In this document: positions 184 to 62,885 of the stretch, piece after piece
Layout of the letters: every line of letters begins with the position of its first letter
Numbering within the stretch: position 1 is the first letter of the stretch
From: Lachnospiraceae bacterium
GTDB lineage: Bacteria; Bacillota; Clostridia; Lachnospirales; Lachnospiraceae
DNA: 64,000 nt
Reading direction: 5' to 3'
NCBI GenBank assembly: GCA_029225065.1
Contig: JAQXVT010000048.1
Coordinates: 1 to 64,000, forward strand
Translations under genes and position numbers: made by a program
The notes under the pieces: model-generated
Database searches by the model: none
Seen by the model: the letters and a program-made list of their open reading frames with translations, nothing else
What the model was told of the DNA's origin: nothing

Positions 184-240
184 TCAAAGCGGATATTCCA
201 GGTCCGCTTCGCTACTTGCTATTGCTTAGTGAAACAGCAA
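184..240. repeat. Dispersed intergenic hairpin, family A copy 1
   Basis: Left arm AAAGCGGAT (186-194), loop 195-201, right arm GTCCGCTTC (202-210), followed by CTACTTGCTATTGCTTAG, which resembles the tail of other copies. The stem has one T-G wobble and one terminal mismatch. It lies upstream of both spoIIIAA (minus) and arcC (plus). Confidence 0.65.
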
Positions 241-303
241 ACTCTTTTACTGCGTAAACAACAACCATGTTTCAATATATGGGACGGGTTCCTGGATTAT
301 GCC

Positions 304-332
304 TTGCTTTTTTATGCACGGAATAATATAAT
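304..332 (+). promoter_or_regulatory. Sigma-A promoter for carbamate kinase
   Basis: TTGCTT at 304-309 and TATAAT at 327-332 are separated by 17 bases. The predicted start near 339 would leave a leader of about 45 bases before the gene at 385. Confidence 0.6.
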
Positions 333-384
333 AAGTCATGATTATTAAGCACGAAATTCTTACGAAAGTACGAGGTATCCTGAT

Positions 385-1317
385 ATGAAAAAGAGAGTTG
401 TTGTTGCACTTGGCCATCGTGCGCTTGGCACGACGCTTCCGGATCAGAAGCTGGCAGTAAACTCTTCCGCTGTTATTCTTGCGGATCTGGTGGAGGAAGG
501 CGCACAGCTGATTATCACACACAGCAATGCACCGCAGGTCGGCATGATTCACACCGCGATGAACGAGTATGCAAAGGCACATGAGACATATGGCGCACCA
601 ATGTCTGTATGCTCCGCAATGAGCCAGGGTTATATTGGATATGATATTCAGAACGCACTGCGCGCAGAACTCTTAAAACGTGGCATTTATAAGACTGTTT
701 CCACGGTTCTGTCGCAGGTAACGGTAGACCCGTATGATGAGACATTCTACCATCCAACGAAAGTGATCGGCCGGTATATGACCGCAGAGGAAGCTGCTCT
801 GGAGGAGAAAAAGGGAAATTATGTTGTGGAGGAGCCTGGAAAAGGCTTCCGCCGGATCATTGCTTCCCCGAAGCCGATCGATATCGTAGAGATTGATGCA
901 ATTAATGCCCTCTCTGCAGCAGGACAGATCGTGATTGCCTGCGGAGGAGGCGGAATCCCGGTACTGAAACAGGGAAGCAAGCTGAAGGGTGCCAGCGCGG
1001 TCATCGAGAAAGATCTGGTCAGCGGACTGCTTGCGGATCTGACCGATGCGGATATGCTGATGCTCCTGACAAATGAAGAGTTTGTCAACATCAAGTACGG
1101 CACAGACAAGGAGACGCCGCTTGAGCGCATCACTGCCGAGGAAGCAAGAGTCCATATCGCAAACCATGAGTTTGGCGAGACAAAGATGCTGCCGAAGATC
1201 GAGGCATCCATCAACTTTGTCTCCAGAAAAGAAGGACGTACGGCGGTCATCACCTCCATCGACAAAGCGGTCGACGCTTATCTTGGAAAGACCGGTACGG
1301 TGATCTGCGAGAAATAG
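385..1317 (+). CDS. arcC: Carbamate kinase (divergent N-terminal loop)
   Basis: This 310-residue amino acid kinase family protein matches carbamate kinase, which interconverts carbamoyl phosphate plus ADP with carbamate plus ATP in the cytoplasm. Supporting motifs are THSNAPQVG near residue 52, DPYDETFYHPTKVIG near 119, FRRIIASPKP near 153, ACGGGGIPV near 185 and a C-terminal TNEEFVNIKYGT. The usual first loop (GGNAL) is replaced by GHRALGTT, a variant I recall in clostridial homologues. Arginine deiminase and ornithine transcarbamylase genes are not adjacent, so it may act in ATP production from another carbamoyl phosphate source such as purine or agmatine breakdown. It has its own promoter and terminator and appears monocistronic. 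Confidence 0.85.
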   Translation: MKKRVVVALGHRALGTTLPDQKLAVNSSAVILADLVEEGAQLIITHSNAPQVGMIHTAMNEYAKAHETYGAPMSVCSAMSQGYIGYDIQNALRAELLKRGIYKTVSTVLSQVTVDPYDETFYHPTKVIGRYMTAEEAALEEKKGNYVVEEPGKGFRRIIASPKPIDIVEIDAINALSAAGQIVIACGGGGIPVLKQGSKLKGASAVIEKDLVSGLLADLTDADMLMLLTNEEFVNIKYGTDKETPLERITAEEARVHIANHEFGETKMLPKIEASINFVSRKEGRTAVITSIDKAVDAYLGKTGTVICEK

Positions 1318-1344
1318 GGTTTTCTGAAAAACAGAACCAATAAA

Positions 1345-1386
1345 AAGAAGAACCAGAGGTTTATAAACCTGGTTCTTCTTATATTA
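1345..1386 (+). terminator. Intrinsic terminator after arcC
   Basis: Perfect 12-base arms AAGAAGAACCAG (1345-1356) and CTGGTTCTTCTT (1369-1380), extended inward by a GTTTATAAAC palindrome and followed by a T-rich run. It ends the carbamate kinase transcript 27 bases after its stop codon. Confidence 0.8.
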
Positions 1387-1747
1387 TATTTTATGAAACG
1401 CACATTTTTACTTTTCAGCTTCCTGATTGTCTGTCAATTCTGTTGTTTTAATTTTTGTCCTGTGCTGCTTTTAAGATGTTTTGGAAATCCCGCAGAGTCT
1501 CCCATAAAAGACTGGTCAAAAGTTAATACTACGAACCGTTTCTGTGCAAGCTCATTTTTCTCTTAGATGCTACACTCAGGCTAGTCAGACCTCTTTCGGA
1601 AGAACTCAGGTACAGAGCCGGAATCCAGGATTTTGTTCAGGTTCTTCAGGAAATAAACGCCATTTTTTATTCACAAAAGACACAGAGTAAAACCTGTACG
1701 AATCAGTTTTCACTCTGTGTCTTTTGTGATCGCCTTAATATATAATT
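1387..1747. other. Gene-free stretch with one long inverted repeat
   Basis: No convincing open reading frame is seen. The only structure is a perfect 18-base inverted repeat at 1671-1688 and 1712-1729 (arms contain ACAAAAGACACAGAGT), immediately downstream of dut on the minus strand. It probably ends the dut transcript, although the minus-strand flank after the stem is not a clear U tract. The rest (1390-1660) shows nothing I can name and may be decayed sequence. Confidence 0.4.
1671..1729 (-). terminator. Probable terminator of the pheS-dut run
   Basis: An 18-base-pair perfect stem with a 23-base loop lies 19 bases past the dut stop codon. The weak U tract is the reason for the modest confidence; it could also be an RNA stabilising stem. 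Confidence 0.5.
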
Positions 1748-2182
1748 TTAATTCTTTCCGGTACTTCCGATTCCGCCGCGGTCCGGTGCTTCGAGCCGCT
1801 CACACTCTTCAAAGTGAAGTGTCGGTTGATGCTCCATGATGCGGAACTGGCAGATTCGGTCATTTTTGTGGATCTCAGTATCGCGCAGCGCATACGCCGG
1901 CATATACCACCAGTCGTTTGGACCGGCATACGTCTCATCTACGACGCCCATATGGTTTGTCTGGATAATGCCGAAGTTTTTGTAGGTAGAACTGCGCGGC
2001 ACGATGTGTGCCTCATAGCCCTCCGGCAGCTGCATTGCCACGCCGAGCGGAATCAGGCGGAACTCGCCTTTTTTCATCACGATGTCCTCTGCTGCACGCA
2101 GGTCGATCCAGTCTGATTTGCCATCAATGTATTCGAGACGTTTGATGTCATCGTTTAAATACTGAATTTTAATATTTTTCAT
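1748..2182 (-). CDS. dut: dUTP diphosphatase
   Basis: This is a 144-residue trimeric-type dUTPase, which hydrolyses dUTP to dUMP and diphosphate and keeps uracil out of DNA. The five family motifs are recognisable: DLRAAED (27-33), PRSS (62-65), GVVDETYAG (79-87) with the substrate Tyr, RICQFRI (109-115) and the C-terminal RGGIGSTG (135-142). I chose the ATG at 2182 because AAAAGGA stands in front of it and family homology begins there. A longer frame reaching 2293 would read through the repeat hairpin and is not real. The gene is last in the run led by pheS, 110 bases behind nrdG with repeats in between. Confidence 0.9.
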
Positions 2183-2219
2183 GCTTTGTTTTCCTTTTTT
2201 ATATGATTTTTGCCGCAAA

Positions 2220-2303
2220 TCAAAGCGGATATTGCTATCTGCTTTGCTACTGGCAGGCAGCTCATAAGGGATCCTCCCACTGACGTGGGCCACTACTTAT
2301 GAG
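2220..2303. repeat. Family A hairpin next to a family B palindrome
   Basis: Family A core: AAAGCGGAT (2222-2230), six-base loop, ATCTGCTTT (2237-2245). Directly after it lies family B: CTCATAAG (2261-2268) with CTTATGAG (2296-2303) and an inner CCCAC/GTGGG pair. The palindrome overlaps the last codons and TAG stop of nrdG. It sits between nrdG and dut. Confidence 0.65.
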
Positions 2304-2781
2304 AGATCATGTATCCCTGCCGCAATGATTCCGGCACGTCGATCACGTGCTGATTTGAGCTTCCCCTCCAGTGCAGCTGCGTATCGCGCAGCTCTTTTTC
2401 GTAGCGCCCATCCACCAGCACATCGATATAGTTCAAAATTTCGTGTCCCATCAGCGCAGACCACTCATATCCGGTGTAAAGCCAGATCGTTTTGTTCGGA
2501 AACTGCTCTTTGATTTCTTTTGCAAGCGCGGTAATCTCCGCCTCATTTGCTTCGTGAAGTGGATCGCCGCCGCTGAAGGTGATGCCGGAAACGTATGGCT
2601 TTCCCAGCTCGGCGAAAAGCTCGTGCTTCTCTTTCTCTGTAAACGGGAGTCCACCGTTCGGATCCCAGGTCAGCGGATTCTGACACTCCGGACAGCCGTG
2701 ACTGCACCCGGCCACCCACAGCACCACGCGGAGTCCGTCGCCGTTTAGCATATCGTCCTTTGTAATGTTATGATATCTCAT
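2293..2781 (-). CDS. nrdG: Anaerobic ribonucleotide reductase activating protein
   Basis: This 162-residue radical SAM enzyme generates the glycyl radical on the anaerobic class III ribonucleotide reductase NrdD. The cluster-binding signature CSHGCPEC gives cysteines at 26, 30 and 33, in the C-x3-C-x2-C spacing used by NrdG-type activases. A GGDP motif for SAM binding follows at 71-74. The length is normal for the family. The partner nrdD is not in the window. The gene starts 8 bases after queA ends, so the two are probably cotranscribed. Its 3' end runs into a family B palindrome, which supplies the final His-Lys codons and stop. Pairing with dut downstream gives a small nucleotide-metabolism set. 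Confidence 0.9.
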
Positions 2782-2789
2782 GGCTGACC

Positions 2790-3848
2790 TCAGTTATCTG
2801 ATTCCGTTGTGCCGGTACTGTCGTCCGTGATCAGCATGGCGTCTCCAAAGGAGAAAAATCTGTATTTTTCCCGAACCGCTTCCTCATACGCGGTCATAAT
2901 GTGTTCTTTTCCGGCCAGCGCGGACACCAGCATCAAAAGCGTGGACTCCGGAAGGTGGAAGTTTGTGATCAGGCAGTCCAACACTTTGAATTGATATCCC
3001 GGATAGATAAAAATTTCGGTCCAGCCGCTGCACGGGCGCAGTGTACCGTCCGGTGCTGCTGCGGATTCGATTGTCCGACAGCTCGTTGTGCCGACACAGA
3101 TGATGCGTCCGCCGTTTTTCCTTGTCTCATTGATGAGGTTTGCTGCAGTCTCGTCGACCTGGTAAAATTCAGAGTGCATGTGATGCTGTGTCACATCCTC
3201 GACCTTGACCGGGCGGAAGGTGCCAAGCCCGACGTGTAGTGTGACCTCTGCGATATTCACGCCCATCGCCCGCACTTTTTCCAGCAGTTCCGGTGTAAAA
3301 TGAAGGCCGGCGGTCGGTGCTGCTGCGGATCCCTCATATTTTGCGTAGACGGTCTGGTAGCGGTTTTTATCTTTCAGCTCATGGGTGATATACGGCGGCA
3401 GCGGCATCTGTCCGAGCTGATCCAGAATCTCCTCAAAGACGCCCTTGTACGTGAACTGAATCAGGCGGTTGCCCTCCTCCACGATATCAACAACTTCTCC
3501 GACTAAAAGTCCGTCACCGAAGATAATTTTTGTACCGATACGTGCCTTTTTTCCCGGCTTTACAAGGGTTTCCCAGATGTTGTTTTCTTTTCGCTTCAGG
3601 AGAAGAATCTCGATCAGCGCACCGGTTCCCTCCCGTGTTCCGTAGAGACGTGCCGGGATAACTTTCGTGTTGTTTATGACAAGGCAGTCTCCCTTGTGAA
3701 GGTAATCGGTGATATTATAAAAGTGACGGTGATGCATTTCACCCGTCTTTTTATTCAGTACAAGAAGCCGCGAAGCTGAGCGATCCTCAAGTGGATCCTG
3801 AGCGATCAGTTCCTGCGGCAGATCAAAATAAAAATCAGACGTTTTCAT
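2790..3848 (-). CDS. queA: S-adenosylmethionine:tRNA ribosyltransferase-isomerase
   Basis: QueA transfers and isomerises the ribose of S-adenosylmethionine onto 7-aminomethyl-7-deazaguanine at the wobble position of GUN tRNAs, giving epoxyqueuosine. The protein is 352 residues, close to the usual length. Typical features are the N-terminal [16 protein letters not shown], the central [25 protein letters not shown] and the C-terminal [17 protein letters not shown]. The start codon overlaps the end of the upstream phosphatase gene by 14 bases, so translation is likely coupled. Other queuosine genes (tgt, queG/queH) are not here. It belongs to the run that begins at the Phe T-box. Confidence 0.93.
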
Positions 3849-4485
3849 AATATATCTTATCCTGTTCTATGATTGCCCAGCGAGGGGCATCTGTTTCGTT
3901 GCTTTCCTTTGTGCGCGGCAAAAGTTCGACGATTGTGACGGCACAGTTCGGTGGAACCCCTCCATCCCAGAAGTCGACCAGAGCAGCGTGCCTGATGTGC
4001 GCCAACAGGGCGCGGCTTGCCGCACCGTGCGTCGAAATGAGAATTGTTTTGTCGGCGAGCTCCGTTTTCTGTGCAAGCTCGTCAAGAAACGCTGCGGTCC
4101 TGGCAAGAAGCTGCGGCAGGCTTTCTGCGTCCTTCGGCGGAATAAACTGATCCGGGTGTGAAAAAAAACTCTGAAAAATCGGATCAACCAGTGCTCCGCT
4201 TTCATCTCTCACGCGCCGTCCTTCGTATGTGCCAAAACCAATCTCCTGAATCCGCGCATCCTCCAGAAAAGGAATCGTTCGGTTCCCAAGTATAATCTGT
4301 GCTGTCTCTTTTGCGCGCAGAAGCGGACTTGTAATACAGAGGTCAAACGGAACCATCTGCAAAGCACGGGCGGTCACCTGTGCAAGTTCCCGCCCGTTTT
4401 CATTTAATGGAATATCAGTCTGACCCTGAAGAAAAAGCTCTTTGTTCCATGCGGTCTCCCCATGGCGAATGATATACAGTTTCAT
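3835..4485 (-). CDS. Histidine phosphatase family protein
   Basis: A 216-residue member of the phosphoglycerate mutase-like histidine phosphatase superfamily. The catalytic signature RHGETAWN (R7, H8) is at the N terminus and the second catalytic histidine is in STHGAAS near residue 152, with a conserved [10 protein letters not shown] segment near 54. The substrate cannot be told from sequence; relatives include alpha-ribazole phosphatase, fructose bisphosphatase and small-molecule phosphatases. It starts 20 bases after pheT and overlaps queA, so it is an internal gene of the pheS-led run. There are no cobalamin genes nearby, so I do not call it CobC. Confidence 0.8.
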
Positions 4486-4505
4486 TTTTCAGTCCTTTTC
4501 CGCGA

Positions 4506-6923
4506 TCAGGAACGGATATCGATGCCCATGGATTCCAGACCATTCCAGATCTTCTTCATTGCTGCGGTGATATCGCTCTCACCAAGCGTGCGGTCTTTCG
4601 CACGGAACGTGATGGAGTAAGCCATGGACTTGAATCCAGCTTTGATCTGTGCGCCCTCATAAATATCGAAGAGCTCACAGCCCTCAAGGATCTGTCCGCC
4701 GCGTTTGATGATCATCTCCTCGATCTGTCCTGCAAGGATGGATTTCGGAACGACCATACTGATGTCACGTGTGACAGCCGGGAATTTTGCAATGCCCTGA
4801 TATTTTCTGTCATACGTTGCAAGCTTCACGATCTCCGGCATATCGAGAACAGCAATGTAAGCCTTCTCTCCAATTCCGTACGTAGCTGCAACGGTCGGAT
4901 GTACCTCTCCGAGATAGCCAACCAGTGTCTCGCCGCAGTAAATATTTGCCTGGCGGCCCGGATGCAGGAACGGCTTTCCGCTCTCCGGGGAATACGTCTT
5001 GCGGCAGGTGATGCCGACTTTCTCAAGGAACTCTTCCACGACACCCTTCATCGTGAAGAAATCACCGTCACCGTACATACCAAGCGTAAACTGCATGCGC
5101 TCATCCGGCAGCTCGGTCAGTGGAAGTGCCTTCGGCAGGTAAATGTTTCCAAGCTCATAGAGACGTACATTTTTGTTGCGGTGGCTATAGTTGAATGCGA
5201 GGGAGGTCAGCATGCCGTTTACCGACTGGGTACGCATGATACTGAAATCTTCGCCGAGCGGATTCATGATGCGGATCGCATTGCGAAGCGGAGAATCTGT
5301 CGGAATCAGGAGCTTGTCGAATGCCTTCGGACTCTCAAAAGAGTACATCATTCCCTGCGAGAATCCACAGAACTCTGCGATATCCTGTGCTGTTGCGCGC
5401 ACACGAAGGTCAAACGGAAGCTTTCCGGTTGTGGCCTCTCCACTCGGGAGTGTAGTCGGAATATTGGCATATCCGTAGAATCTTGCAACCTCCTCTGCCA
5501 GATCAGCAGTGCGGAACAGATCCTGACGGAAGGTCGGAGCGATGACTTCATTTGTCACCTCGTCGTATCCAAGATCAATCTTTTTGAAATAAGCAAGCAT
5601 CTGGTCTGCGGAAATATCTGTGCCGAGCAGTGCGTTGATGCGGTCCGGCTCAAACGGGATGCGTACCGGCTGTTTTACGACCGGATAAACATCTACCATA
5701 CCGCCGACAACCTCTCCTGCACCAAGCTCCTCGATCAGCTGGCAGGCACGGTTGATTGCTTCCTCTGCGTTGTTCGGATCCAATCCTTTCTCAAATTTTG
5801 CAGATGCGTCGGTACGAAGGCCGATTCTCTTTGCAGAGAGACGGATGTTTGTTCCATCGAAGCAGGCTGCCTCAAACAGCATGGTCTTGACATCATCTGT
5901 AATCATGGAGTTCTCACCGCCCATGATACCTGCGATACCAACGGATTTCTCACCATCGCAGATTACCAGAACATTTTCATCCAGCGTGCGCTCCTGATCG
6001 TCGAGTGTGACGAACTTCTCGCCCTTTTCTGCGCGTCGTACAATAATCTCATGACCGGAGAGCTGATCATAGTCGTATGCATGCATCGGCTGGCCATACT
6101 CTTCCATGATATAGTTTGTGATATCGACGATATTATTGATCGGACGGATGCCTGCTGCTGCAAGGCGGCGCTGCATCCACTTCGGTGACGGTGCGATATG
6201 GATGTTCTTTACGACTCTTGCGCAGTAGCGTGGGCAGAGATCGGTATCCTTTACCGTTACCTTAATATAATCTGCTGCGTTTTCGTCATTTCCGGTCGGT
6301 GTGACAACCGGCGGATGAAATTTTTTTCCAAATGTGGCAGCGGCCTCTCTTGCAATTCCGATTACGCCGAAGCAGTCCACACGGTTGGAAGTAATCTCAT
6401 ATTCAAAAGTGACATCATGCAGTCCGAGTGCCTCGATTGCGTCTGCACCAACCTCAGCATCCTCCGGGAAAATGTAGATGCCGTATTCCGGTGCTTCCGG
6501 GTACAGCTCTTTGGTCGAACCAAGCTCTTCGATGGAGCACATCATACCGTTTGACTCTACGCCGCGCAGTTTCCCTTTTTTGATTTTAATGCCGCCCTCG
6601 GTCATCTTGCCGTCATGATTTCCGGCTACTCTTCCGCCGTCCAGTACGACCGGAACCTTGTCGCCCTCTTTGACATTCGGTGCGCCGGTGACGATCTGAA
6701 TCGTCTCGCTTCCGATATTTACCTGGCAGATGATCAGCTTGTCTGCGTCCGGATGACGCTCGATTTTTTCGATCTGACCGATGACGATCTTTTCCAGATC
6801 GCGGTCAGCTGCCTCATATCCCTCCACCTTTGTTCCGGAGAGTGTCATTGCATCCGTATATTCCTGAGCCGTGCAGTCAAGATCCGGTACGTATGCTTTA
6901 ATCCAGGATAACGTTGTATTCAT
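4506..6923 (-). CDS. pheT: Phenylalanyl-tRNA synthetase beta subunit
   Basis: The 805-residue beta subunit of the alpha2-beta2 enzyme that charges tRNA-Phe. An EMAP/tRNA-binding domain occupies about residues 40-155, the B3/B4 editing domain follows at about 205-380 (YCARVVKNIHIAPSPKWMQ and NNIVDITNYIMEEYGQPMH at its front), then B5, the catalytic-like core and a C-terminal anticodon-binding FDX-ACB domain at about 710-805 (KFPAVTRDISMVVPK). Length and domain order are normal for bacterial PheT. It starts 13 bases after pheS. Expression should be set by the T-box leader upstream of pheS. Confidence 0.96.
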   Translation of the reverse strand: MNTTLSWIKAYVPDLDCTAQEYTDAMTLSGTKVEGYEAADRDLEKIVIGQIEKIERHPDADKLIICQVNIGSETIQIVTGAPNVKEGDKVPVVLDGGRVAGNHDGKMTEGGIKIKKGKLRGVESNGMMCSIEELGSTKELYPEAPEYGIYIFPEDAEVGADAIEALGLHDVTFEYEITSNRVDCFGVIGIAREAAATFGKKFHPPVVTPTGNDENAADYIKVTVKDTDLCPRYCARVVKNIHIAPSPKWMQRRLAAAGIRPINNIVDITNYIMEEYGQPMHAYDYDQLSGHEIIVRRAEKGEKFVTLDDQERTLDENVLVICDGEKSVGIAGIMGGENSMITDDVKTMLFEAACFDGTNIRLSAKRIGLRTDASAKFEKGLDPNNAEEAINRACQLIEELGAGEVVGGMVDVYPVVKQPVRIPFEPDRINALLGTDISADQMLAYFKKIDLGYDEVTNEVIAPTFRQDLFRTADLAEEVARFYGYANIPTTLPSGEATTGKLPFDLRVRATAQDIAEFCGFSQGMMYSFESPKAFDKLLIPTDSPLRNAIRIMNPLGEDFSIMRTQSVNGMLTSLAFNYSHRNKNVRLYELGNIYLPKALPLTELPDERMQFTLGMYGDGDFFTMKGVVEEFLEKVGITCRKTYSPESGKPFLHPGRQANIYCGETLVGYLGEVHPTVAATYGIGEKAYIAVLDMPEIVKLATYDRKYQGIAKFPAVTRDISMVVPKSILAGQIEEMIIKRGGQILEGCELFDIYEGAQIKAGFKSMAYSITFRAKDRTLGESDITAAMKKIWNGLESMGIDIRS

Positions 6924-6936
6924 TTTCTTCTCCTCC

Positions 6937-8175: not shown

Positions 8176-8446
8176 AAAGAAAGCTCCGCCCCTCTGATAG
8201 GGACGAAGCTGTATGTTCCGTGGTACCACCCTGCTTCCTGCCATCCGGCAGGCACTTGGTATGCGTAACGTGCACTGACGTCTTCTTCTACTTGGACTTC
8301 CGTTCAAAGAGGAGGCTCCGGTGTGAAATTTCGAACGGTATCTGAACCTGAGGAGCTTCCAGCCGCTGACATCCTCTCTCTGTCGGAAAATACACTTCTA
8401 CTTTGCACCATCTGCGCTTTTTTTCTATAAAAGTTTCTTATATACC
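8176..8446 (-). promoter_or_regulatory. Phenylalanine T-box riboswitch leader of pheST
   Basis: The minus strand carries the T-box sequence GGGTGGTACCACGG (8217-8231), the antiterminator element that pairs with the acceptor end of uncharged tRNA. It is followed by a terminator hairpin, AGCTTCGTCCCT-type arms at 8182-8193 and 8199-8210, then a U-rich run. The upstream 200 bases fold into several stems as expected for stem I to III, including AGTA near the 5' end. A plausible UUC (Phe) specifier is at 8327-8325 in ATTTCAC, which fits the pheS-pheT genes downstream. The exact specifier needs a covariance alignment. Uncharged tRNA-Phe should favour read-through. Confidence 0.88.
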
Positions 8447-26581: not shown

Positions 26582-26636
26582 CAAAAGCGGATATTCGCAA
26601 TCTGCTTTGCTGCTTGCCTGACTCGGTTAAATATAG
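26582..26636. repeat. Dispersed family A hairpin with tail module
   Basis: AAAGCGGAT (26584-26592), loop ATTCGCA, ATCTGCTTT (26600-26608), then GCTGCTTGCCTGACTCGG and TTAAATATAG. One G-U wobble in the stem. This copy is one of the clearest for the core-plus-tail architecture. Confidence 0.75.
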
Positions 26637-27772: not shown

Positions 27773-28459
27773 TCAGGAACGTCTTCTGTCCAGCTTCTTG
27801 GACAGCATCATACCGATACTCTGCAGAATCTGCACCAGAAGCACCAGTACGATAATCGTAATAAACATCACATCGGTCTGATATCGGTAATAGCCGTACC
27901 GGATTGCGATATCGCCCAGTCCGCCGCCGCCGACTGCGCCGGCCATCGCCGAATAACCGAGAATTGTGCCGGTCGCGATTGTAACGCCGACCAATAAAGA
28001 GGTGCGCGCTTCAACCAGCAGGACACTCCAGATAATCCGACCGACACTCGCCCCCATCGACTGCGCTGCCTCGATGACACCGCGGTCTACCTCCTTTAAG
28101 GAGGATTCCACCATTCGCGCAATAAACGGAGCTGCCGCGATGGTCAGCGGAACGATGGTCGCTGTGGAACCGTAGCTTTTTCCGACAATCGCCTTCGTGA
28201 TCGGGATAACCAGAATCAGAAGGATCAGAAACGGAATACTGCGGGCGATATTGACTACTACATCGAGTATTTTGTAAATCACATCATACGCTCTCTGCGC
28301 GCCTTTGGAATGCGGGCGAATGCCTTCCTTGTCTGTTACCATCAGAAGAATTCCCATCGGCAGACCGAATAAATAGCCAAAAAATGTTGCAAACAGCGTC
28401 ATATACAGGGTATCTCTAGTGCCTTCCACCAGCATCTTTATCATTTCACTATCCAACAT
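27773..28459 (-). CDS. metI: Methionine ABC transporter permease
   Basis: A 228-residue membrane permease with about five spans. The coupling EAA loop (EAAQSMGASVGRIIWSVLL) is near residue 140 and GYSAMAGAVGGGGLGDIA near 180 is typical of MetI. The ATG at 28459 overlaps metN by 11 bases and follows its GGAGG; a longer frame to 28507 is rejected. It forms the membrane channel of the MetNIQ importer for methionine. Confidence 0.92.
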   Translation of the reverse strand: MLDSEMIKMLVEGTRDTLYMTLFATFFGYLFGLPMGILLMVTDKEGIRPHSKGAQRAYDVIYKILDVVVNIARSIPFLILLILVIPITKAIVGKSYGSTATIVPLTIAAAPFIARMVESSLKEVDRGVIEAAQSMGASVGRIIWSVLLVEARTSLLVGVTIATGTILGYSAMAGAVGGGGLGDIAIRYGYYRYQTDVMFITIIVLVLLVQILQSIGMMLSKKLDRRRS

Positions 28460-29459: not shown

Positions 29460-29516
29460 ACTTTTTTCTCCTGTTATTTTTTCTGCTGTTATCTTACCTT
29501 TTTTTCTTTGCCATGT

Positions 29517-29541
29517 AAAGCAGATATTTACGATCTGCTCT
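29517..29541. repeat. Family A hairpin with compensated stem pair
   Basis: AAAGCAGAT (29517-29525), loop 29526-29532, ATCTGCTCT (29533-29541). The sixth pair is A-T here instead of the consensus G-C, with both sides changed. It lies between metQ and metN. Confidence 0.6.
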
Positions 29542-29566
29542 GACTGTCTGATGAAGCAATGCGAAA

Positions 29567-31625: not shown

Positions 31626-31681
31626 TGTGATATCTCCTCTGTGTTCTCTCGTTATTTTTTCTGTATTCTCTATCATATGGG

Positions 31682-31706
31682 AAAACGGACATTTGCAATC
31701 CATTTT
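31682..31706. repeat. Family A hairpin, variant subtype
   Basis: AAAACGGAC, loop ATTTGCA, ATCCATTTT, then CG. The same GGAC...ATCCATTTTCG form recurs at 44075-44101, suggesting a sub-family. It is in the metAA leader. Confidence 0.5.
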
Positions 31707-31740
31707 CGTCAATTGCAGAATACATTAATCAGTCCTCTTT

Positions 31741-34698: not shown

Positions 34699-34802
34699 AT
34701 ATTTAACCGAGTCAGGCAAGTCCTTTGCGGGGTTGCGAGGAGCAATAAGCAGTAGATGGGGACTTACTTGTATCATAAGTGAAATAAACTCACTTGTGAT
34801 AC
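34699..34802. repeat. Composite dispersed repeat (tail module, reverse orientation)
   Basis: AACCGAGTCAGGCAAGTC (34706-34723) is the reverse complement of the tail seen at 26617 and 48240, GAGCAATAAGC matches the middle module at 48209-48219 in reverse, and GGGGACTTAC recurs at 22139 in reverse. A 13-base hairpin, GTATCATAAGTGA with TCACTTGTGATAC (34770-34802), follows with one wobble. The surrounding 34668-34914 has no gene. Confidence 0.6.
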
Positions 34803-34914
34803 AGGTTATGAAATATCACAAGGCGGGAACCGCTTGCGGAACTTCCAAAGAAATATGTATGCCTGTCTCGGACAAAGTCTGTTTGTTATTTTATCACATT
34901 CCAAAATAATGCAC

Positions 34915-36001: not shown

Positions 36002-36036
36002 CTGCAATTCCCTCCGGACTCATATTGTAATTGTTC

Positions 36037-36060
36037 GAAGCAAATAGTCGAATCCGCTTC
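36037..36060. repeat. Family A hairpin, diverged copy
   Basis: GAAGCAAAT (36037-36045), six-base loop, ATCCGCTTC (36052-36060). The terminal pair is G-C here instead of A-T, with both sides changed; two inner pairs are mismatched. Confidence 0.45.
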
Positions 36061-36099
36061 GCCCCTGTTCCTAACCAAATAGCTGATTCGTTATACTGA

Positions 36100-36135
36100 T
36101 TTATTATAATTCACAGCTTTATTATAATTCACAGC
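36100..36135. repeat. Tandem 18-base duplication in the SH3b gene leader
   Basis: Two perfect copies of TTTATTATAATTCACAGC in tandem. On the minus strand each contains ATTATAAT, a -10-like word, upstream of the SH3b gene. The rest of 36002-36238 is AT-rich with no gene visible. Confidence 0.6.
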
Positions 36136-36238
36136 TTATTAGGTTAATTTTTTAAATTTACATGAATTTTATCATATGCAGAGTTAAAAGTAAAGCCACC
36201 GTTTCTTAAACATTTTGTAAATTTTATAACAAAAAAAA

Positions 36239-36311
36239 CGCGTCTGGAGGGAGTCGAACCCCCGGCACGTGGTACCGGAAACCACTGCTCTATCCTCTGA
36301 GCTACAGACGC
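36239..36311 (-). tRNA. tRNA-Arg, anticodon CCG
   Basis: A 73-base cloverleaf on the minus strand: acceptor arms GCGTCTG and CAGACGC, D-loop TAGCTCAGAGGATAGAGC, anticodon stem GTGGT/ACCAC with loop TTCCGGT giving anticodon CCG, and T-loop GGTTCGACTCC. It reads the arginine codon CGG. The 3' CCA is not encoded; the discriminator base is followed at once by a run of T residues that probably ends transcription. Confidence 0.95.
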
Positions 36312-36357: not shown

Positions 36358-36413
36358 GGATGATTTTTTAATTTTTTCGCAATTTGTTTAATTTTTGATA
36401 TAAATAACACAAC

Positions 36414-36447
36414 TTTTTCGGGCAGAGAAAATTCTCTGCCCGAAAAA
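36414..36447 (-). terminator. Probable terminator of the large surface protein gene
   Basis: TTTTTCGGGCAGAGA and TCTCTGCCCGAAAAA form a 15-base stem with a four-base loop. It lies about 100 bases past the surface protein stop codon. The A-T ends of the stem mean it can act in either direction, though the U tract is inside the stem. Confidence 0.65.
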
Positions 36448-36507
36448 CAGAAACAACACAATAGCGATATATATTTGTTTACAGCTGCTCACTTATGAGC
36501 AAGCAGC

Positions 36508-36532
36508 AAAGCGAATTGCGAATATTCGCTTT
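36508..36532. repeat. Family A hairpin, reverse orientation, perfect compensated stem
   Basis: AAAGCGAAT (36508-36516), loop TGCGAAT, ATTCGCTTT (36524-36532): a perfect 9-base stem. Relative to the consensus, pair 7 is A-T instead of G-C on both strands, and the loop is the exact reverse complement of ATTCGCA. It lies between the surface protein stop and its terminator. Confidence 0.7.
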
Positions 36533-36548
36533 GACGATATTGGATTGT

Positions 36549-43967: not shown

Positions 43968-44074
43968 AGGATTCCTCCTCATAGTCATTTTTGTAATTTA
44001 TGAATATTCCACTTTTCTCTGTTCTCGTTTGAATTTCACTTTTTCTATCCGGTGTCTGCCGTAATGCAGACAGT

Positions 44075-44099
44075 AAATCGGACATTCGCAATCCATTTT
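44075..44099. repeat. Family A hairpin, variant subtype
   Basis: AAATCGGAC, loop ATTCGCA, ATCCATTTT. Shares the GGAC...ATCCATTTTCG form with the copy at 31682. It lies in the leader of the surface protein gene. Confidence 0.5.
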
Positions 44100-44168
44100 C
44101 GCGGTCTGCGTTCACCCTCCCTCTCGTCAACATTGTCATTTCATGTCAGGCCATCCTGAGTATTCAGA

Positions 44169-45633: not shown

Positions 45634-45700
45634 AGACAATTTTTATTCACTCATAACCAGCACCATGAGTAGAAACACAGACGACTTTTCTGACTCTTAT

Positions 45701-45732
45701 CAAAGCGGATGTTTGCAATCCACGATGCTTTC
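45701..45732. repeat. Family A hairpin with insertion in right arm
   Basis: AAAGCGGAT (45702-45710), loop GTTTGCA, ATCCACGATGCTTTC: the right arm is split by about four extra bases. Nearby TGAAGGATCCTTCA (45743-45756) is a separate perfect palindrome. Confidence 0.5.
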
Positions 45733-45769
45733 TGCAGAATCATGAAGGATCCTTCACCTGCTTTGTAAA

Positions 45770-48129: not shown

Positions 48130-48260
48130 GCTTCCGGCTCATAATGCAAGCTGACGACTTGCTTGACTCAAGTCACAGCGGATATTCGCAATCCGTTTTG
48201 CTGCCTGCTTATTGCTCCGCGAAATTGAAGCAGGGTACTTACCTGACTCGATTAAATATA
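48130..48260. repeat. Longest family A element (core, middle and tail modules)
   Basis: Core AGCGGAT (48177-48183), loop ATTCGCA, ATCCGTTTT, then CTGCCTGCTTATTGCTCCG (middle module), then TACTTACCTGACTCG and TTAAATATAG (tail module). A degenerate TTGCTTGACTC piece lies at 48159-48169. This copy shows the full order of modules, about 90 bases, between pyrC and its terminator. Confidence 0.7.
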
Positions 48261-56594: not shown

Positions 56595-56606
56595 GATACG
56601 TCCCCC

Positions 56607-58151: not shown

Positions 58152-58176
58152 AATGGCCTCCTTTTTTGCCTGAATC

Positions 58177-59475
58177 TCACTCGGATTTCTGTCTGCCGAG
58201 GAGATAATCGATGAACTGCTGTGCTGTTCTGCCGGAAAGCCCGCCGTGGCTGAGCTCCCACTTGTTTGCCTCTAAGAGCAGCGTCTCTTCCGGCATGTCA
58301 ATGCCGTTTCGTCTCGCCAGAGAACGGACGATCTCCTGGAACTGCTTTTTATCCGGCGAACCGAAGTAGATCGTGACGCCGAATCTCGATACGAGGGAAA
58401 GCTTTTCCTGAATCGTATCATTTGAGTGCAGATCGCCATACGCCTCCTCGTTGTCGCGGAACGTCTCTTTGATCAAATGTCTGCGGTTTGAGGTAGCGTA
58501 TATCAGAATGTTTTCCGGCTTCTTTTCCAGGCCGCCCTCGATGACTGCTTTCAGATACTTGTATTCGATCTCAAATTCCTCAAAGGAAAGATCGTCCATA
58601 TAGATGATAAATTTGTAATTCCGGTTTTTGATCTGCGCGATCACCTCGTTCAGATCCTGGAACTGATGCTTGTAGATCTCGATAATGCGAAGCCCCTGAT
58701 CATAGTAACGGTTCAAGATCGCCTTGATGCTCGATGATTTTCCGGTGCCCGCGTCGCCGAACAGCAGGCAGTTATTTGCTCTTCGTCCCTGCACAAATGC
58801 CTCCGTGTTGTCGATCAGCTTCTGCTTTGCAATTTCATAACCGACGAGATCCTCCAGATTGACGTGACGTATGTTCGTGATCGGCTCAATCCGTACACCG
58901 CGCTCATCATGTGCCACACGGAATGCCTTGTGCAGTCCAAAGGTGCCAACGCCGAATTCCCGGTAAAATTCCACCATGCTCCTGGTGAATGACTCCAGGG
59001 TGTCTGCTGCGGCGAGTTCTTTGCTCAGCGCACAGATCCGGTCGCGGATACGGTGGTTAAACAGCTTGCCGGAGGATTCTTCGCGTCTGTAGCAAAGCAG
59101 TTCCTCAAAAAATCCTGCCTGCAGTGTGCGCTCCAGCTCCGTGAAGTCATACGCAAACAGTTCACGGAAAATCGCAAAATCATGACACGCCAGATTCAAA
59201 AGGCTGCAGTCGGAAATGCCGCGGATCTCACAGGCAGTGCTGAAGCTGTTTTCATTATTGACAAGCAGAAACGTCAGGTAAGTCTGCCACAGATTACCTT
59301 CAAAGCCGTATTGCCCGGCCAGCTCGATCAGGTCATGCATGCAGGAGAAAAACCGGCTTCTTACCTCGGCTGCATCGCTTTTTTCTTCAAAGTGCCCCAT
59401 GATCCAGGTCATGTCTTCCAGTACGGTTCCGTTTTCAAAATTTCGATATAAAACTAATTCTCTGATGTCTGTCAT
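58177..59475 (-). CDS. DUF815 family AAA ATPase
   Basis: A 432-residue protein. The first 190 residues are helical and variable. The C-terminal half matches DUF815: GYEIAKQKLIDNTEAFVQG, Walker A GDAGTGKSSS near 243, Walker B-like IIYMDDLSFEEFE near 293 and the sensor region ILIYATSNRRHLIKETF. The family is AAA-like and its function is not known. It lies between pheA and ppx with small gaps (12 and 25 bases), so it is probably cotranscribed with the polyphosphate genes. Confidence 0.88.
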   Translation of the reverse strand: MTDIRELVLYRNFENGTVLEDMTWIMGHFEEKSDAAEVRSRFFSCMHDLIELAGQYGFEGNLWQTYLTFLLVNNENSFSTACEIRGISDCSLLNLACHDFAIFRELFAYDFTELERTLQAGFFEELLCYRREESSGKLFNHRIRDRICALSKELAAADTLESFTRSMVEFYREFGVGTFGLHKAFRVAHDERGVRIEPITNIRHVNLEDLVGYEIAKQKLIDNTEAFVQGRRANNCLLFGDAGTGKSSSIKAILNRYYDQGLRIIEIYKHQFQDLNEVIAQIKNRNYKFIIYMDDLSFEEFEIEYKYLKAVIEGGLEKKPENILIYATSNRRHLIKETFRDNEEAYGDLHSNDTIQEKLSLVSRFGVTIYFGSPDKKQFQEIVRSLARRNGIDMPEETLLLEANKWELSHGGLSGRTAQQFIDYLLGRQKSE

Positions 59476-59487
59476 AATTATCCTGCC

Positions 59488-60618
59488 TTAGTAATTTCCA
59501 AGAATTTTCATATTGATTGCTTCCTCACGGATACCGCGGAGTGCATTTTTTACTGCGCTGTCGTTTAAGTTGCCCTCAAAATCGACAAAGAAGCGATATT
59601 CCCAGTTTCTTCCGTAAATCGGACGGGATTCTACTTTGTTCATGTTGAGGCCGTTGTAAATGATATGCGACAGCACGTTGTAAAGAGAACCGCTCGAATG
59701 CGGTGTCTCAAAGCAGATACTGATCTTCGTCGCGTCTTTGCGGAAAATTCGCTGATTCGTAACCACAATAAACCGCGTCGAATTTTTCTCATTATAATAA
59801 ATGTGCTCTTCCAGCACGTCAAGGCCAAATACCTGGGCTGCAAACTTGCTTGCAACCGCTGCCTGTGTCTTATCGCCATCCTCCGCAATCTTTTTTGCCG
59901 CCAATGCAGTATTATCGTATGGAACCTTCCGCCACTCCGAATGACTGCCGAGATATTCCTCACACTGTGCCAGTGCCTGAGAATGAGAATAAACAGTCTT
60001 AATGTCTGAAAGCTTTGTGCCGGGCAGGCCGAGCAGCGCATGCTGACATTTCACAATCTGCTCTCCTACGATATAATTTTCAAAATTTACAAGCAGATCA
60101 TAATTGTCTGCCACGATTCCGGCGGAAGAATTCTCAATCGGAAGCACTGCATAATCAGCTGCGCCCTCTGCGATTGCCTCCATCGCATCGCGGAAGGAAC
60201 GGACATGGAAACAGTTGACATCCTCTCCGAAATAAGCCCGCATTGCCGCATGGCTGTAAGCACCCTCCACGCCCTGATAAACGACACGGATATTCGTGCG
60301 GTCAATGTCATCTACTGCGATAAACGGCAGACGGCCGGAGGCTCCGTTTTGTTCCAGCAGCTGGTACTGCAGCTTCCGGCTCATCGACATGATCTGCTGA
60401 AACAGCTCTTCCACACCGTGGCGGTTGAAATCGTTGTGTGCCATCGCTTTTAAGGAGACAAGCTTCGCCTGCTCCCGTTCTTTGTCAAATACCTTTTTTC
60501 CAATGGAAATTTTATACTTTGCAACATCCTCACTGATCTGCATCCGCTGCTCAAACAATTCTACAATCTGTTTATCTACTGCGTCAATCTGTTCACGCAG
60601 CTCTGTCAAATTTTTCAT
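59488..60618 (-). CDS. pheA: Bifunctional chorismate mutase/prephenate dehydratase
   Basis: A 376-residue P-protein for phenylalanine synthesis. The AroQ-type chorismate mutase domain covers about residues 1-90 (LREQIDAVDKQIVELFEQRM). The dehydratase domain (about 110-290) has QGVEGAYSHAAMRAYFG and the catalytic NSTRFIVV. A C-terminal ACT domain with ESRP (near 340) gives feedback inhibition by phenylalanine. The start has GTGAGGAG upstream. It heads the long minus-strand run that continues to yqeG. A small leader frame and a hairpin that could hide its ribosome-binding site lie directly upstream. Confidence 0.95.
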   Translation of the reverse strand: MKNLTELREQIDAVDKQIVELFEQRMQISEDVAKYKISIGKKVFDKEREQAKLVSLKAMAHNDFNRHGVEELFQQIMSMSRKLQYQLLEQNGASGRLPFIAVDDIDRTNIRVVYQGVEGAYSHAAMRAYFGEDVNCFHVRSFRDAMEAIAEGAADYAVLPIENSSAGIVADNYDLLVNFENYIVGEQIVKCQHALLGLPGTKLSDIKTVYSHSQALAQCEEYLGSHSEWRKVPYDNTALAAKKIAEDGDKTQAAVASKFAAQVFGLDVLEEHIYYNEKNSTRFIVVTNQRIFRKDATKISICFETPHSSGSLYNVLSHIIYNGLNMNKVESRPIYGRNWEYRFFVDFEGNLNDSAVKNALRGIREEAINMKILGNY

Positions 60619-60636
60619 CTGTGACTCCTCACTCTT

Positions 60637-60693
60637 TTATACGTACTCTCGGAGTCTTTCTAGCTCAAACCAAAAAAGATTCTGAGGATACAT
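60637..60693 (-). CDS. Candidate leader peptide upstream of pheA
   Basis: An 18-codon frame, starting at the ATG at 60693 and ending 18 bases before the pheA start codon, reads MYPQNLFWFELERL followed by REYV. It contains Phe-Trp-Phe in a row. A stem of GACTCC (60656-60651) with GGAGTC (60628-60623) would cover the pheA ribosome-binding site. A weak promoter (TTTACA 60772-60767, TATGAT 60747-60742, 19-base spacer) lies upstream. Its own ribosome-binding site is poor. The rest of the gap to 60992 shows nothing else. Confidence 0.25.
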   Translation of the reverse strand: MYPQNLFWFELERLREYV

Positions 60694-60992
60694 TTATTTC
60701 TGCCGTGATATGCCATCGGATGGCTCCGGCGTTTTTATTCTATCATACTTTCACTCAGGAAAACACTGTAAATTGATAGATTTTTCGCTTCTTTTTCCAA
60801 TGACACTAACGTATGTAAACTGCTGCAAAGCAATGTAAAACAGGCGTAAGTTTCTGCCAAAATCGGCGTAATACGGAACAAACATTCGCAGACAACATTT
60901 TCAGAAATGCTATCGCCCTGCAGATATGCCGCGCATAACACCGGGCAATTTGGTCAATACTGAAACCATAAAATGTGGCTGGAGGATGTGTT

Positions 60993-61385
60993 ATGAAATG
61001 GAATTTTATTAAATGCGGCATGATCGGATGGTGTCTTGAGGTGGCGTGGACCGGACTTGGATCACTTCTGCACCATGATCCGAAGCTGACCGGGGTCTCA
61101 TCCCTGACCATGTTTCCCATCTATGGCATGGCCTCCCTCGTCGCGCCTGCATATCGGCATCTGCGAAAATATCGGTTTTATATTCGTGGGCTTGTCTATA
61201 TGACCGGCATTTTTGCAGTGGAATACACCACCGGCCGCATCCTGCAACGCTACAACTGCTGTCCCTGGGATTACAGCAATGCACCGCTGCAGATCGGCGG
61301 TGTGATCCGGCTCGACTACGCCCCCTTATGGTTTCTGACCGGCCTTTTTTATGAAAAAATGGTTACCGGAAATCCAATAAAATAG
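60993..61385 (+). CDS. Small membrane protein, putative ABC-transporter type IV family
   Basis: A 130-residue membrane protein with about four hydrophobic segments. It resembles the DUF1113/YesV-type family (Pfam putative ABC-transporter type IV), with an N-terminal GMIGWCLEVAWTGLGSLL, the central SLTMFPIYGMASLVAP and a C-terminal CPWDYSNAPLQIGGVIRLDY. No transport function is shown for the family and no ATPase is adjacent. GGAGG lies eight bases before the ATG at 60993. It is a single plus-strand gene ending at a two-way terminator. Confidence 0.78.
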   Translation: MKWNFIKCGMIGWCLEVAWTGLGSLLHHDPKLTGVSSLTMFPIYGMASLVAPAYRHLRKYRFYIRGLVYMTGIFAVEYTTGRILQRYNCCPWDYSNAPLQIGGVIRLDYAPLWFLTGLFYEKMVTGNPIK

Positions 61386-61466
61386 TCCAAACACGATCTG
61401 GCAAAGCTATGATTCACAATTCTTCCGGGCAATCAGCCAAAGAATAAACCCGCAGCACATCGTCAA

Positions 61467-61512
61467 AGACGCCGTCCCGTGCTTCACGCGTGTGAAGTTC
61501 GGTACGGCGTCT
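61467..61512. terminator. Two-way terminator between the membrane protein and HPr
   Basis: AGACGCCGT (61467-61475) pairs with ACGGCGTCT (61504-61512), with an inner CTTCAC/GTGAAG stem. Both flanks have short U runs (TTTG). It lies between convergent genes. Confidence 0.75.
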
Positions 61513-61557
61513 CATCTTTGTCCGCTTTCGTATGAATCTGTCATATCTGCCCGTCTC

Positions 61558-61815
61558 CTACTCCAGGTGCTTCAGTGCTTCTTCCATTGCATCCAGGTCT
61601 TCCTTTTCATTCGGACCGGTGCAGCGAAGCTCTATCTTTGCCCCGCACGGGATTGATGCTGCCAGGATATTCAGCAGGCTGCGCGCATTGATAATGTTAT
61701 ACTCGTAAATAATCTCCACTTTCGAGCTGCAATGCTCTGCCGCTTTTACGAGTACACCGGCCGGTCTAATATGAAATCCGGACGGATTCGATACAGTTAC
61801 CATTCTGCTGACCAT
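61558..61815 (-). CDS. HPr family phosphocarrier protein
   Basis: An 85-residue protein of normal HPr size. His15 lies in PSGFHIRPAG (usual form GLHARPA), with Arg17 kept, so it can accept phosphate from enzyme I. Ser46 in INARSLLNIL is the position phosphorylated by HPr kinase in carbon catabolite control. The surrounding residues are more divergent than in a typical PtsH (GFHI, and IPCGAKIEL in place of the usual glycine-rich turn), so it may be a Crh-like or secondary HPr. AGGAGG precedes the ATG, which follows a good promoter. Confidence 0.87.
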   Translation of the reverse strand: MVSRMVTVSNPSGFHIRPAGVLVKAAEHCSSKVEIIYEYNIINARSLLNILAASIPCGAKIELRCTGPNEKEDLDAMEEALKHLE

Positions 61816-61850
61816 AATCTTCCTCCTTGTTTTTATACATTATGGATATT

Positions 61851-61879
61851 ATCATAGTATATGCTTCGAGCAATTTCAA
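61851..61879 (-). promoter_or_regulatory. Promoter of the HPr gene
   Basis: TTGAAA (61879-61874) and TATGAT (61856-61851) with 17 bases between, about 30 bases before the start codon. Confidence 0.7.
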
Positions 61880-62038
61880 CATTTTTACTGATTGTACGCG
61901 TTTTTATCCAATTTTTTTACATTTTCTTAACATTTTAGTTTCAATTCGTTTTCTTTCGCCTTTTTTTGATCCCTGTCTGTACATAATCAGAAAATTACGG
62001 TATCATATTCTTGCCATTAACTCAAAAGGAGGTTCTTT

Positions 62039-62767
62039 ATGAAACTGATTATCATCCGTCACGGCGATCCCGATTACTCGATCGATTCCCTGACTGAAAA
62101 AGGCTGGAAAGAAGCCGAATATCTCGCCGACCGCATTGCAAAGCTCGACGTAAAGCAGTTTTACGTCTCCCCGCGCGGCCGGGCAAAAGACACTGCATCT
62201 CTCACTCTCAAAAAAATGAACCGCACCGCGATCGAATGCGAATGGCTGCGGGAATTTGCCCCGGTCATTGACCGTCCGGACCGTCCACAGTCCCCGGTGT
62301 GCTGGGACTGGCTTCCGGGTGACTGGACAAAGGAAGAAGATTTTTACCGATATGACCGCTGGGGCGAGGTACCCGCCATGAAAAATGGTCATGTAAAAGA
62401 AGAATACGACTGGGTATGCAAAAGCCTCGACGACTTGCTTGCGTCGTACGGCTACGTGCGCGACGGACATCTCTACCGCGCAGAGCAGCCAAATACCGAT
62501 ACAATCGTTTTCTTCTGCCATTTCGGGCTTGGCTGCGTCCTGATCAGTCACCTGATCGGTGTCTCACCGATGGTACTCTGGCACGGTCTGTGCGCAGCGC
62601 CGACCTCCGTTGCCTCACTCGTGACGGAAGAACGCAGAAAAGGAATTGCAAGCTTCCGGATGGGATACTACGGTGACATTTCTCATCTTTATGTGAAGGA
62701 TGAACCGCCTGCGTTCTCCGCACGGTTCTGTGAGTGTTATGACAATGAGGAGGAGCGGCACGACTGA
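62039..62767 (+). CDS. Histidine phosphatase family protein
   Basis: A 242-residue histidine phosphatase. The catalytic RHGDPDYS (His8) opens the protein and the second His is in FFCHFGLGC near 161. YVSPRGRAKDTASLTL near 43 is the substrate-loop region. It has CWDWLPGDW and a later HGLCAAPTSVASLVTEE region seen in a clostridial subgroup. The substrate is unknown. It differs clearly from the phosphatase at 3835-4485. AAGGAGG precedes the ATG. It is a single gene flanked downstream by two family A hairpins. Confidence 0.82.
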   Translation: MKLIIIRHGDPDYSIDSLTEKGWKEAEYLADRIAKLDVKQFYVSPRGRAKDTASLTLKKMNRTAIECEWLREFAPVIDRPDRPQSPVCWDWLPGDWTKEEDFYRYDRWGEVPAMKNGHVKEEYDWVCKSLDDLLASYGYVRDGHLYRAEQPNTDTIVFFCHFGLGCVLISHLIGVSPMVLWHGLCAAPTSVASLVTEERRKGIASFRMGYYGDISHLYVKDEPPAFSARFCECYDNEEERHD

Positions 62768-62784
62768 TATTTCAAGGCTGCCTC

Positions 62785-62885
62785 GCCGCTTGCCTGACTC
62801 CAATCAAAGCGAATATTCGCAATTTGCTTTGCAGCTGTTCAGGTCAAAGCAGATATCCGCAATTCGCTTCTCTACTTGCTCAGTT
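62785..62885. repeat. Two tandem family A hairpins
   Basis: First core AAAGCGAAT (62806-62814), loop ATTCGCA, ATTTGCTTT; second core AAAGCAGAT (62846-62854), loop ATCCGCA, ATTCGCTTC. A TTGCCTGACTC tail precedes the first and a TTGCTCAGTTAAAATA tail follows the second. The first shows A-T at pair 7 with both sides changed. They lie between convergent genes. Confidence 0.7.

Follow-up and report, generated by a model that had tools for sequence, protein, structure and literature searches.

A dispersed intergenic hairpin of Lachnospiraceae is one end of a larger gene-less element, probably a mobile one of REP/PATE-like type

Insertion sequences (IS) of the IS200/IS605 group are described as inserting 3′ of a tetra- or pentanucleotide, without target duplication and on the lagging strand (PMC8612924, PMC7290912); IS608 and ISDra2 are described as acting on the lagging-strand template (PMC8612924, PMC6006769), tetranucleotide guides as reading the target (PMC6006769), and TTTAA as the insertion site of one IS605 element (PMC11043419). 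Here we compare with these systems a hairpin that recurs between the genes of the window, by which we mean the whole stretch analysed, positions 1-64,000 of contig C48 (JAQXVT010000048.1) in the 3.18-Mb, 88-contig draft genome of a Lachnospiraceae bacterium (the source genome). A first-pass annotation of the window had listed at least 13 copies, called them similar to repetitive extragenic palindromes (REPs) and proposed selection on the folded form rather than simple spread. The hairpin is in fact one end of a larger gene-less element, about 164 bp when complete, and probably serves as right-end palindrome in a family of mobile, non-autonomous elements comparable to REPs and to palindrome-associated transposable elements (PATEs). 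We say that the element works like a non-autonomous IS200/IS605 element and do not claim membership, because no tnpA element with the same ends was seen.

Architecture, insertion and orientation of the element

An exact core search with one genome per species returned at least 111 stretches, of which 80 were examined and 31 not used. Among these 80 loci the hairpin often opens a unit of up to ~164 bp: on the strand of the first-pass annotation, the hairpin of the full element, AAGCGGAT-ATTCGCA-ATCCGCTT, is followed by a linker, CGCTACTTGCTCA, and a closing stem, TAACCGAAT/ATTCGGTTA, that encloses three arms. Short forms of 43-51 bp, to which several window copies belong, consist of the hairpin and the TTAAA-side end only.

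Filled and empty sites delimit the element. A full copy in Blautia luti (locus L392) reads, on the opposite, presumably active strand, CTCTTTAA[CCAAATCAAG...CCGCTTGAC]ATGCCTGGAAAATCCCGTCC, and the same site is empty in B. massiliensis (G061; TTCTTTAA AGGCCTGAAAAATCCCGTCC) and in G076 (TTCTTTAA AAGCCTGAAAAATACCGTCC). To within about one base, the element spans CC to TTGAC and lies directly 3′ of TTTAA. No target-site duplication is present at this exact site, and a second, approximate site, placed within a few bases by comparing L124 with G121 (86% identical over 2 kb nearby), agrees. TTTAA adjoins 19 of 20 full elements, a count that is partly built in since a TTAA-like end served to delimit copies. 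If TTTAA belongs to the target rather than to the element, copies that abut are expected to join without TTAAA, and 11 of 18 tandem rows (loosely flagged) show clear end-to-end joins of this sort; in L113, for example, the TTAAA-side end TTGATTCGG meets the next hairpin-side end GTCAAGCGG. At two window copies, 48173 and the tandem at 62804, a relative (G002) has ~45 bp against 258 in the source genome and ~48 bp against 148, respectively; the element is absent there, and the flanks are too diverged to place exact junctions. No further junction came from the Eubacterium ramulus pair (sequences too diverged), from G061 and G121 (97% identical; the inspected copies were old and shared, one-sided, unmatched or in rearranged regions) or from the third B. 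luti site (L392, 4677-4841; right flanks rearranged).

The family is abundant. The source genome holds 148 places with at most three mismatches to the hairpin, against 0 for a reversed control pattern, and 109 copies were collected from 864 kb on ten contigs, about one per 8 kb. Only 4 of the 106 copies with a gene on both sides lie inside genes, though 83-89% of the sequence is coding. The description of a dispersed, REP-like palindrome is thus borne out well beyond the window, with more than 100 intergenic copies, and so is its avoidance of genes.

Orientation follows replication. Fork direction was taken from the direction of most genes, and GC skew gives the same answer on each of the ten contig stretches; the 3 of 109 copies lacking a gene on one side were excluded, and overlapping opposite-strand matches of one palindrome were merged, as they were in the weight-matrix set and its best-null value below. 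On each contig most copies share one direction (weakest on C45, 6 versus 11), and the strand of the first-pass annotation opposes the fork in 83 of 102 intergenic copies: 56/70 in gaps between tandem genes, 14/16 in convergent and 10/11 in divergent gaps. Since 24 of the 27 copies in convergent and divergent gaps follow the fork (P 5e-5), gene direction cannot be the cause there, and the active strand, TTTAA...CTTGAC, would sit on the lagging-strand template. Local GC skew is matched by 19 of the 20 copies examined (of 25) in B. massiliensis and by 23 of the 27 examined (of 46) in Clostridium sp. Marseille-P2415, together 42 of 47; in gene-neutral gaps of all three genomes taken together, 31 of 38 agree with the inferred fork or with skew (P 1e-4).

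In the source genome the two ends also vary together: TC before the hairpin goes with a TTAAA end in 22 copies and GT with a GTTCAA end in 6, with one copy of each mixed kind (Fisher 8e-5); 62 of the 109 copies have no recognisable far end. The closing stem extends into the bases of the target in either form (TAACC.../...GGTTA and TGAACGCAG/CTGCGTTCA); since it takes in target bases, with TAA paired to TTA, it may help to choose the target. No empty site of the GTTCAA subfamily was seen. A bolder proposal, that Lachnospiraceae harbour a widespread lineage of single-stranded DNA transposons with a mobiliser other than the known Y1 enzymes and a target read by DNA base pairing, strikes us as unlikely. 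Under base pairing, the second subfamily would have shifted its apparent target from TTTAA to TTTGAA along with the internal partner strand and the other end, and target choice could be reprogrammed by editing the element alone.

Because the lack of duplication, the TTTAA target, the tandem joins and the fork bias are the rules of IS200/IS605, we read the family as an element of that behaviour. The active strand would be the reverse complement of that first described, TTTAA^CCGAATC...three arms...GTAGCG-AAGCGGAT TGCGAAT ATCCGCTT-GAC^. A Y1/HUH transposase of IS200/IS605 type, supplied in trans, would excise the element as single-stranded DNA from the lagging-strand template; both this single-strand route and the enzyme class are inferred. 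At another fork the excised element would enter single-stranded DNA immediately 3′ of TTTAA, and inserted copies would then decay without evident constraint. Purging from genes, together with an A+T-rich target, would account for the intergenic placement. The verdict against simple spread is therefore reversed: empty sites, tandem joins and replication-strand bias indicate transposition.

Covariation, the enzyme and competing explanations

The first-pass annotation had rested its case on compensating changes at pairs 6 and 7 of the hairpin stem. A-T double changes do occur there, but half-changed pairs outnumber them (pair 6 in genomic copies: G-C 65, A-C 16, G-T 14, A-T 8). Over pairs 2-9 of 97 distinct copies, pair 1 being excluded, we counted 20 Watson-Crick double changes against 16.6 +/- 3.5 in shuffled sets, a number reached in 397 of 2000 shuffles; 80.9% of cells are paired, and shuffling leaves 80.7%. 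Among the 69 best copies there are 10 double changes against 7.7 (461 of 2000 shuffles reach 10). Selection on the folded stem is not supported by these figures, which show no significant excess. As copies were picked by similarity to the consensus, which disfavours double changes and could hide a weak effect, the result is an absence of support and not proof that covariation is absent. Genomic hairpin copies decay mostly one side at a time.

The body of the element behaves differently. In alignment A1 (20 of 23 full-length references; L107, L109 and L133 excluded, L109 being near-identical to L104), a 56-pair structure has 94.4% of cells paired, against 85.4% when shuffled and 33-44% when slid, and changes on both sides affect 20 pairs (13.8 shuffled) and 107 cells (36.2 shuffled). 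The closing stem occurs as TAACCGAAT, TAACCTCAT, TAACCAAAT and TAACGCTAT, with the matching partner in most copies; its pairs 46 and 47 are broken in 3 of 20. The hairpin is invariant among full elements by design of the search. Selection or copying fidelity acting on structure is thus visible only in the whole element across genera: the claim of stem selection is unsupported for the hairpin, yet the body, a part that the earlier description did not cover, covaries. G.T mismatches (19) and A.C mismatches (24) are about equally rare in full elements, which favours an RNA of neither strand but is not decisive, because replication-linked mutation bias is a confounder.

No enzyme could be tied to the element. 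The source genome has one PF01797 Y1_Tnp gene, IS200-like, whose 3.4-kb locus holds no hairpin copy, and we rejected it as a REP-associated tyrosine transposase (RAYT) adjoining the hairpin; that none stands beside the hairpin in the window had already been noted, and we see none either. PF07282 had no match in the source genome, G066, G067 or G072. A TnpB element with the hairpin at its right end was likewise rejected, none being seen among the 30 TnpB loci inspected. The IscB route gave no lead, HEARO having been sought through Rfam only and IscB not by protein search. Ends in common with an autonomous tnpA element were found in none of the 30 Y1_Tnp loci, four IS pairs and 30 TnpB loci inspected, many loci and genomes being uninspected.

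Several results weigh against mobility of IS200/IS605 type. Among the 30 Y1_Tnp loci inspected (27 distinct, 12 genomes) one has a hairpin, ~640 bp away and outside the IS; an autonomous IS with the same ends was sought in 13 pairs, and the four in which a shared stretch allowed the ends to be compared did not match. Two draft genomes that contain elements, G002 and G066, show no Y1_Tnp. The 30 TnpB loci yielded four loose hairpin-like matches (16-19/23); downstream of the gene none came closer than 870 bp. Exact empty sites total one, tandem row L167 retains TTAA and six rows are unclear. As to orientation, only 3 of 5 copies flanked by genes that oppose the fork are oriented with replication, gene-neutral gaps outside the source genome match skew in 3/4 and 4/7 cases (7/11), local GC skew is itself partly determined by genes, gene calls come from a home-made finder, and a Halanaerobium IS605 survey saw no strand preference, with 10 of 22 leading (PMC7290912). 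As to the ends, the call at 28240, one of six with GT...GTTCAA, is apparently false, and over all 254 copies examined the linkage is weaker, with 85 versus 5 for TC-preceded and 9 versus 9 for TA-preceded copies. The measure of further pair types in the body is unremarkable (44 against 40.1; 42 of 500 shuffles). Our confidence is lowered because both the gene-neutral orientation and the end linkage are weaker beyond the source genome.

Could the element instead act as RNA? A structured RNA or stabiliser of mRNA ends, kept because its fold protects or terminates transcripts, would account for the strong covariation of the body and for a gene-sense strand that is usually the same (56 of 70 tandem gaps), and REPs elsewhere are considered to act in mRNA (PMC3733652). 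We nevertheless judge such a function improbable: the hairpin copies of the source genome do not covary, the balance of G.T and A.C lacks the strand preference that an RNA predicts, none of 10 hairpins in the two stretches scanned between 26000 and 63999 resembles a terminator (a stem, then a T run), and in convergent and divergent gaps it is the fork that sets orientation (24 of 27). The missing strand preference also speaks against each copy being an omega/reRNA-like guide unit, its end transcribed with the right flank as a guide for a TnpB acting in trans. TTTAA is, it is true, a known TnpB transposon-adjacent motif (PMC11043419), and reRNAs are described as products of right ends whose guide lies in the flank (PMC11043419, PMC8612924). 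Given that PF07282 went unmatched in the four genomes named above and that no TnpB gene was seen with the hairpin as its end in 30 loci, we hold this very improbable.

Another alternative is a true REP family moved by a RAYT. More than 100 intergenic copies fit it, and on the active strand a GTAG lies a few bases 5′ of the palindrome foot, at most 9 nt away in 128 of the 254 copies. In the source genome, however, GTAG is found in just 17 of 109 copies, 0 of 30 Y1_Tnp genes in 12 genomes are flanked by the hairpin, the complete element, 164 bp long, has several arms and a fixed target, and the text of one REP survey has no mention of Firmicutes or of five clostridial names; a true REP family is accordingly somewhat more doubtful still than an RNA. 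Template switching can yield double changes without G.U intermediates. Arms kept perfect by such correction of quasi-palindromes, and not by selection, would fit the scarcity of one-sided changes in full elements; correction may indeed add to the covariation, while leaving the fixed boundaries unexplained. A miniature inverted-repeat transposable element (MITE) moved by a conventional DDE enzyme is at odds with an empty site lacking target duplication and with the replication-strand bias. We give scarcely any credence to either of these last two possibilities, and retain that of a mobile element working like IS200/IS605.

Copies in the window and spread among genera

Window copies were detected by a consensus scan (at least 18/27), by a position weight matrix (PWM), whose training set included window copies, and by R1, a full-element covariance model that was trained on other genera and on no window copies. 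The scan gave 16 places against 0-5 in 20 Markov shuffles, two of the 16 being one palindrome read on opposite strands, and recovered 11 of the 13 positions first listed, 12039 barely at threshold. R1 matched 11 of the 13 and one unlisted place; three of these 11 are weak (E 0.16-0.89), yet score 23.6-32.5 by PWM. The estimate of at least 13 copies accordingly holds for 12 of the listed positions, upheld by PWM or R1, and fails for 12039, whose 10.9 bits, scored on the other strand, fall short of the best null (11.8) and whose loop is different. All 13 listed positions lie between genes, as annotated (home-made gene finder).

Most window copies are decayed or shortened forms. On the forward strand, 184-242 is a short copy with the end hairpin and a truncated body (R1 31.1 bits; PWM 35.4), and 26582-26632 a short deletion form running from the hairpin to ...CTGACTCGGTTAAA (R1 32.2 bits; exact pattern match). 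Decayed copies lie at 2220-2268 (R1 20.0 bits, E 0.002; absent from the PWM list), 29515-29560 (R1 15.3 bits; PWM 26.2), 31680-31729 (R1 12.4 bits, E 0.16; PWM 23.6) and 45700-45740 (R1 10.4 bits, E 0.51; PWM 32.5), and a badly decayed one at 36035-36149 (R1 17.5 bits, E 0.009); the stems of the latter (36037) and of 2222 pair poorly. The copy at 44073-44131 belongs to subfamily b (GTAAATCGG...CTGCGTTC; R1 9.4 bits, E 0.89; PWM 27.4). At 48173-48225 (R1 31.8 bits) stands a short copy, first listed at 48177 with a true start at 48175; it follows the TTAAA-side end of another copy, from which TTAAA itself is missing (CTTGCTTGACTCAAGTC). A tandem pair closes the series: a first hairpin at 62804-62830 (listed at 62806), matched by PWM alone (41.2), and a second copy at 62844-62888, ending CAGTTAAA (R1 28.4 bits). 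On the reverse strand, 36366-36534 is a long copy with its hairpin at 36508-36532 and a diverged A+T-rich body (R1 59.9 bits), and 34701-34838, the unlisted match (R1 42.7 bits; sequence read), is an element body with arms and TTAAA-side end and without the standard hairpin, from which we suppose that end modules may be exchangeable.

Some neighbouring observations can be recorded here. At 34701-34838 (-) another part, CCGCAAGCGG...CCTTGTGATATTTCATAAC, replaces the hairpin, and at L003, L012 and C37:73880 of the source genome another palindromic module, GGATCATAAGG...CCTTATGATATT, is fused to it. The only Rfam matches at threshold in the window are a T-box leader at 8196-8423 (-; 108.5 bits) and a tRNA gene at 36239-36311 (-), the latter in the same gap as the copies at 36037 and 36508.

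By record title, the element occurs in Eubacterium ramulus, Blautia, Fusicatenibacter, Roseburia hominis, Oliverpabstia, Anaerocolumna, Catenibacillus, Hominisplanchenecus and others. Duplicate genomes were counted once (the places of G068 are those of G002, and those of G069 those of G019). Around the source genome its occurrence is patchy: of 35 congeners, two are rich in matches (69 and 24) and a third has just one, as has one of the 24 genomes taken from other families of the order. The best copies match the E. ramulus element at 96-98% in Blautia sp. MSJ-9 (G063), 93-95% in B. luti and 91% in B. massiliensis, and at ~75% in E. ramulus ATCC 29099 (G072); with the same E. ramulus query, longer gene matches run at 66-79% in G063 and G064 and at 74-88% in G072. 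These identities suggest recent transfer between genera, or an unusually constrained master.

No element match was found in plasmids. Fourteen unannotated or unverified faecal phage records (MT838429.1, MT835578.1 and 12 more) hold element-like matches, in which prophage and bacterial contamination are not distinguished, and no relative without the element was found; one IMG/VR contig carries the exact 41-base pattern. In Eubacterium sp. MSJ-13 many hairpins lie within ~55 bp of contig ends (L067, L072, L074 and others), which suggests that near-identical copies may break short-read assemblies and that bursts were recent. In B. massiliensis G061 and its relative G121 (L387, L371-L372), a cluster of decayed copies lies among TGTTTCACGTGAAACA sites by a parA-like gene; we take these sites to be parS-like, and the cluster is perhaps close to the origin.

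Comparison with known systems

The family is real and abundant, with at least 148 copies in the source genome, tens in several others and a presence in many Lachnospiraceae, and is probably undescribed. Nothing contradicts the earlier remark that no named family fits: no Rfam family does, and we found no description in the open-access literature on Lachnospiraceae intergenic repeats or hairpins, MITEs, REPs, clostridial RAYTs and PATEs. With its empty sites, its fixed target and its fork bias, the family allows single-strand transposition to be tested in gut commensals and could supply naturally occurring markers for fork direction and inter-genus transfer. The family also poses the question of which enzyme moves an element where no Y1 transposase is seen, and cautions that a covarying fold alone is no evidence for RNA.

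The nearest Rfam entry is RF01699, Clostridiales-1 RNA, with which the element has in common, on the opposite strand, the short motif TGAGCA...GCGGATTGCGAAT. Of the 18 weak matches to it in the source genome, at least 12 fall on element copies, which score 14-27 bits against a cut-off of 48; a 47.1-bit place (C73:84874) is not a listed copy. We rejected identity, as element copies stay below the cut-off and genuine members differ in architecture. Such members occur at L134:6751-6918 (-) and L085:4745-4913 (+), with 145 and 130 bits, the former ~90 bp from an element copy. No other Rfam family overlaps the element at E<=5 in eight full-length loci.

Pneumococcal BOX elements are likewise modular intergenic repeats with variable inner parts. 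REPINs pair two inverted REPs, whereas the two ends of the element are unlike structures; REPINs are described as palindrome-based miniature mobile DNA that spreads within genomes (PMC3116915), and the element is like them in this. With REPs, their mosaic arrays (BIMEs) and TnpA_REP (RAYT), the element shares a small intergenic palindrome, high copy number and, in many copies, a GTAG-like tag on the active strand; it differs in (i), the TTTAA target; (ii), the 164-bp form; (iii), the lack of a RAYT neighbour in what we saw; and (iv), its hosts, the Lachnospiraceae. The closest likeness is to IS200/IS605 elements and PATEs: insertion 3′ of a pentanucleotide, no duplication, subterminal palindromes, lagging-strand bias and end-to-end tandem joins are common to both, while no tnpA or tnpB with matching ends was found, a closed stem that bears several arms and takes in target bases forms the left end, and copy number is high (at least 148 in the source genome). 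The kind of element is therefore already known; what is new, besides the missing enzyme, is its architecture and its matched ends.

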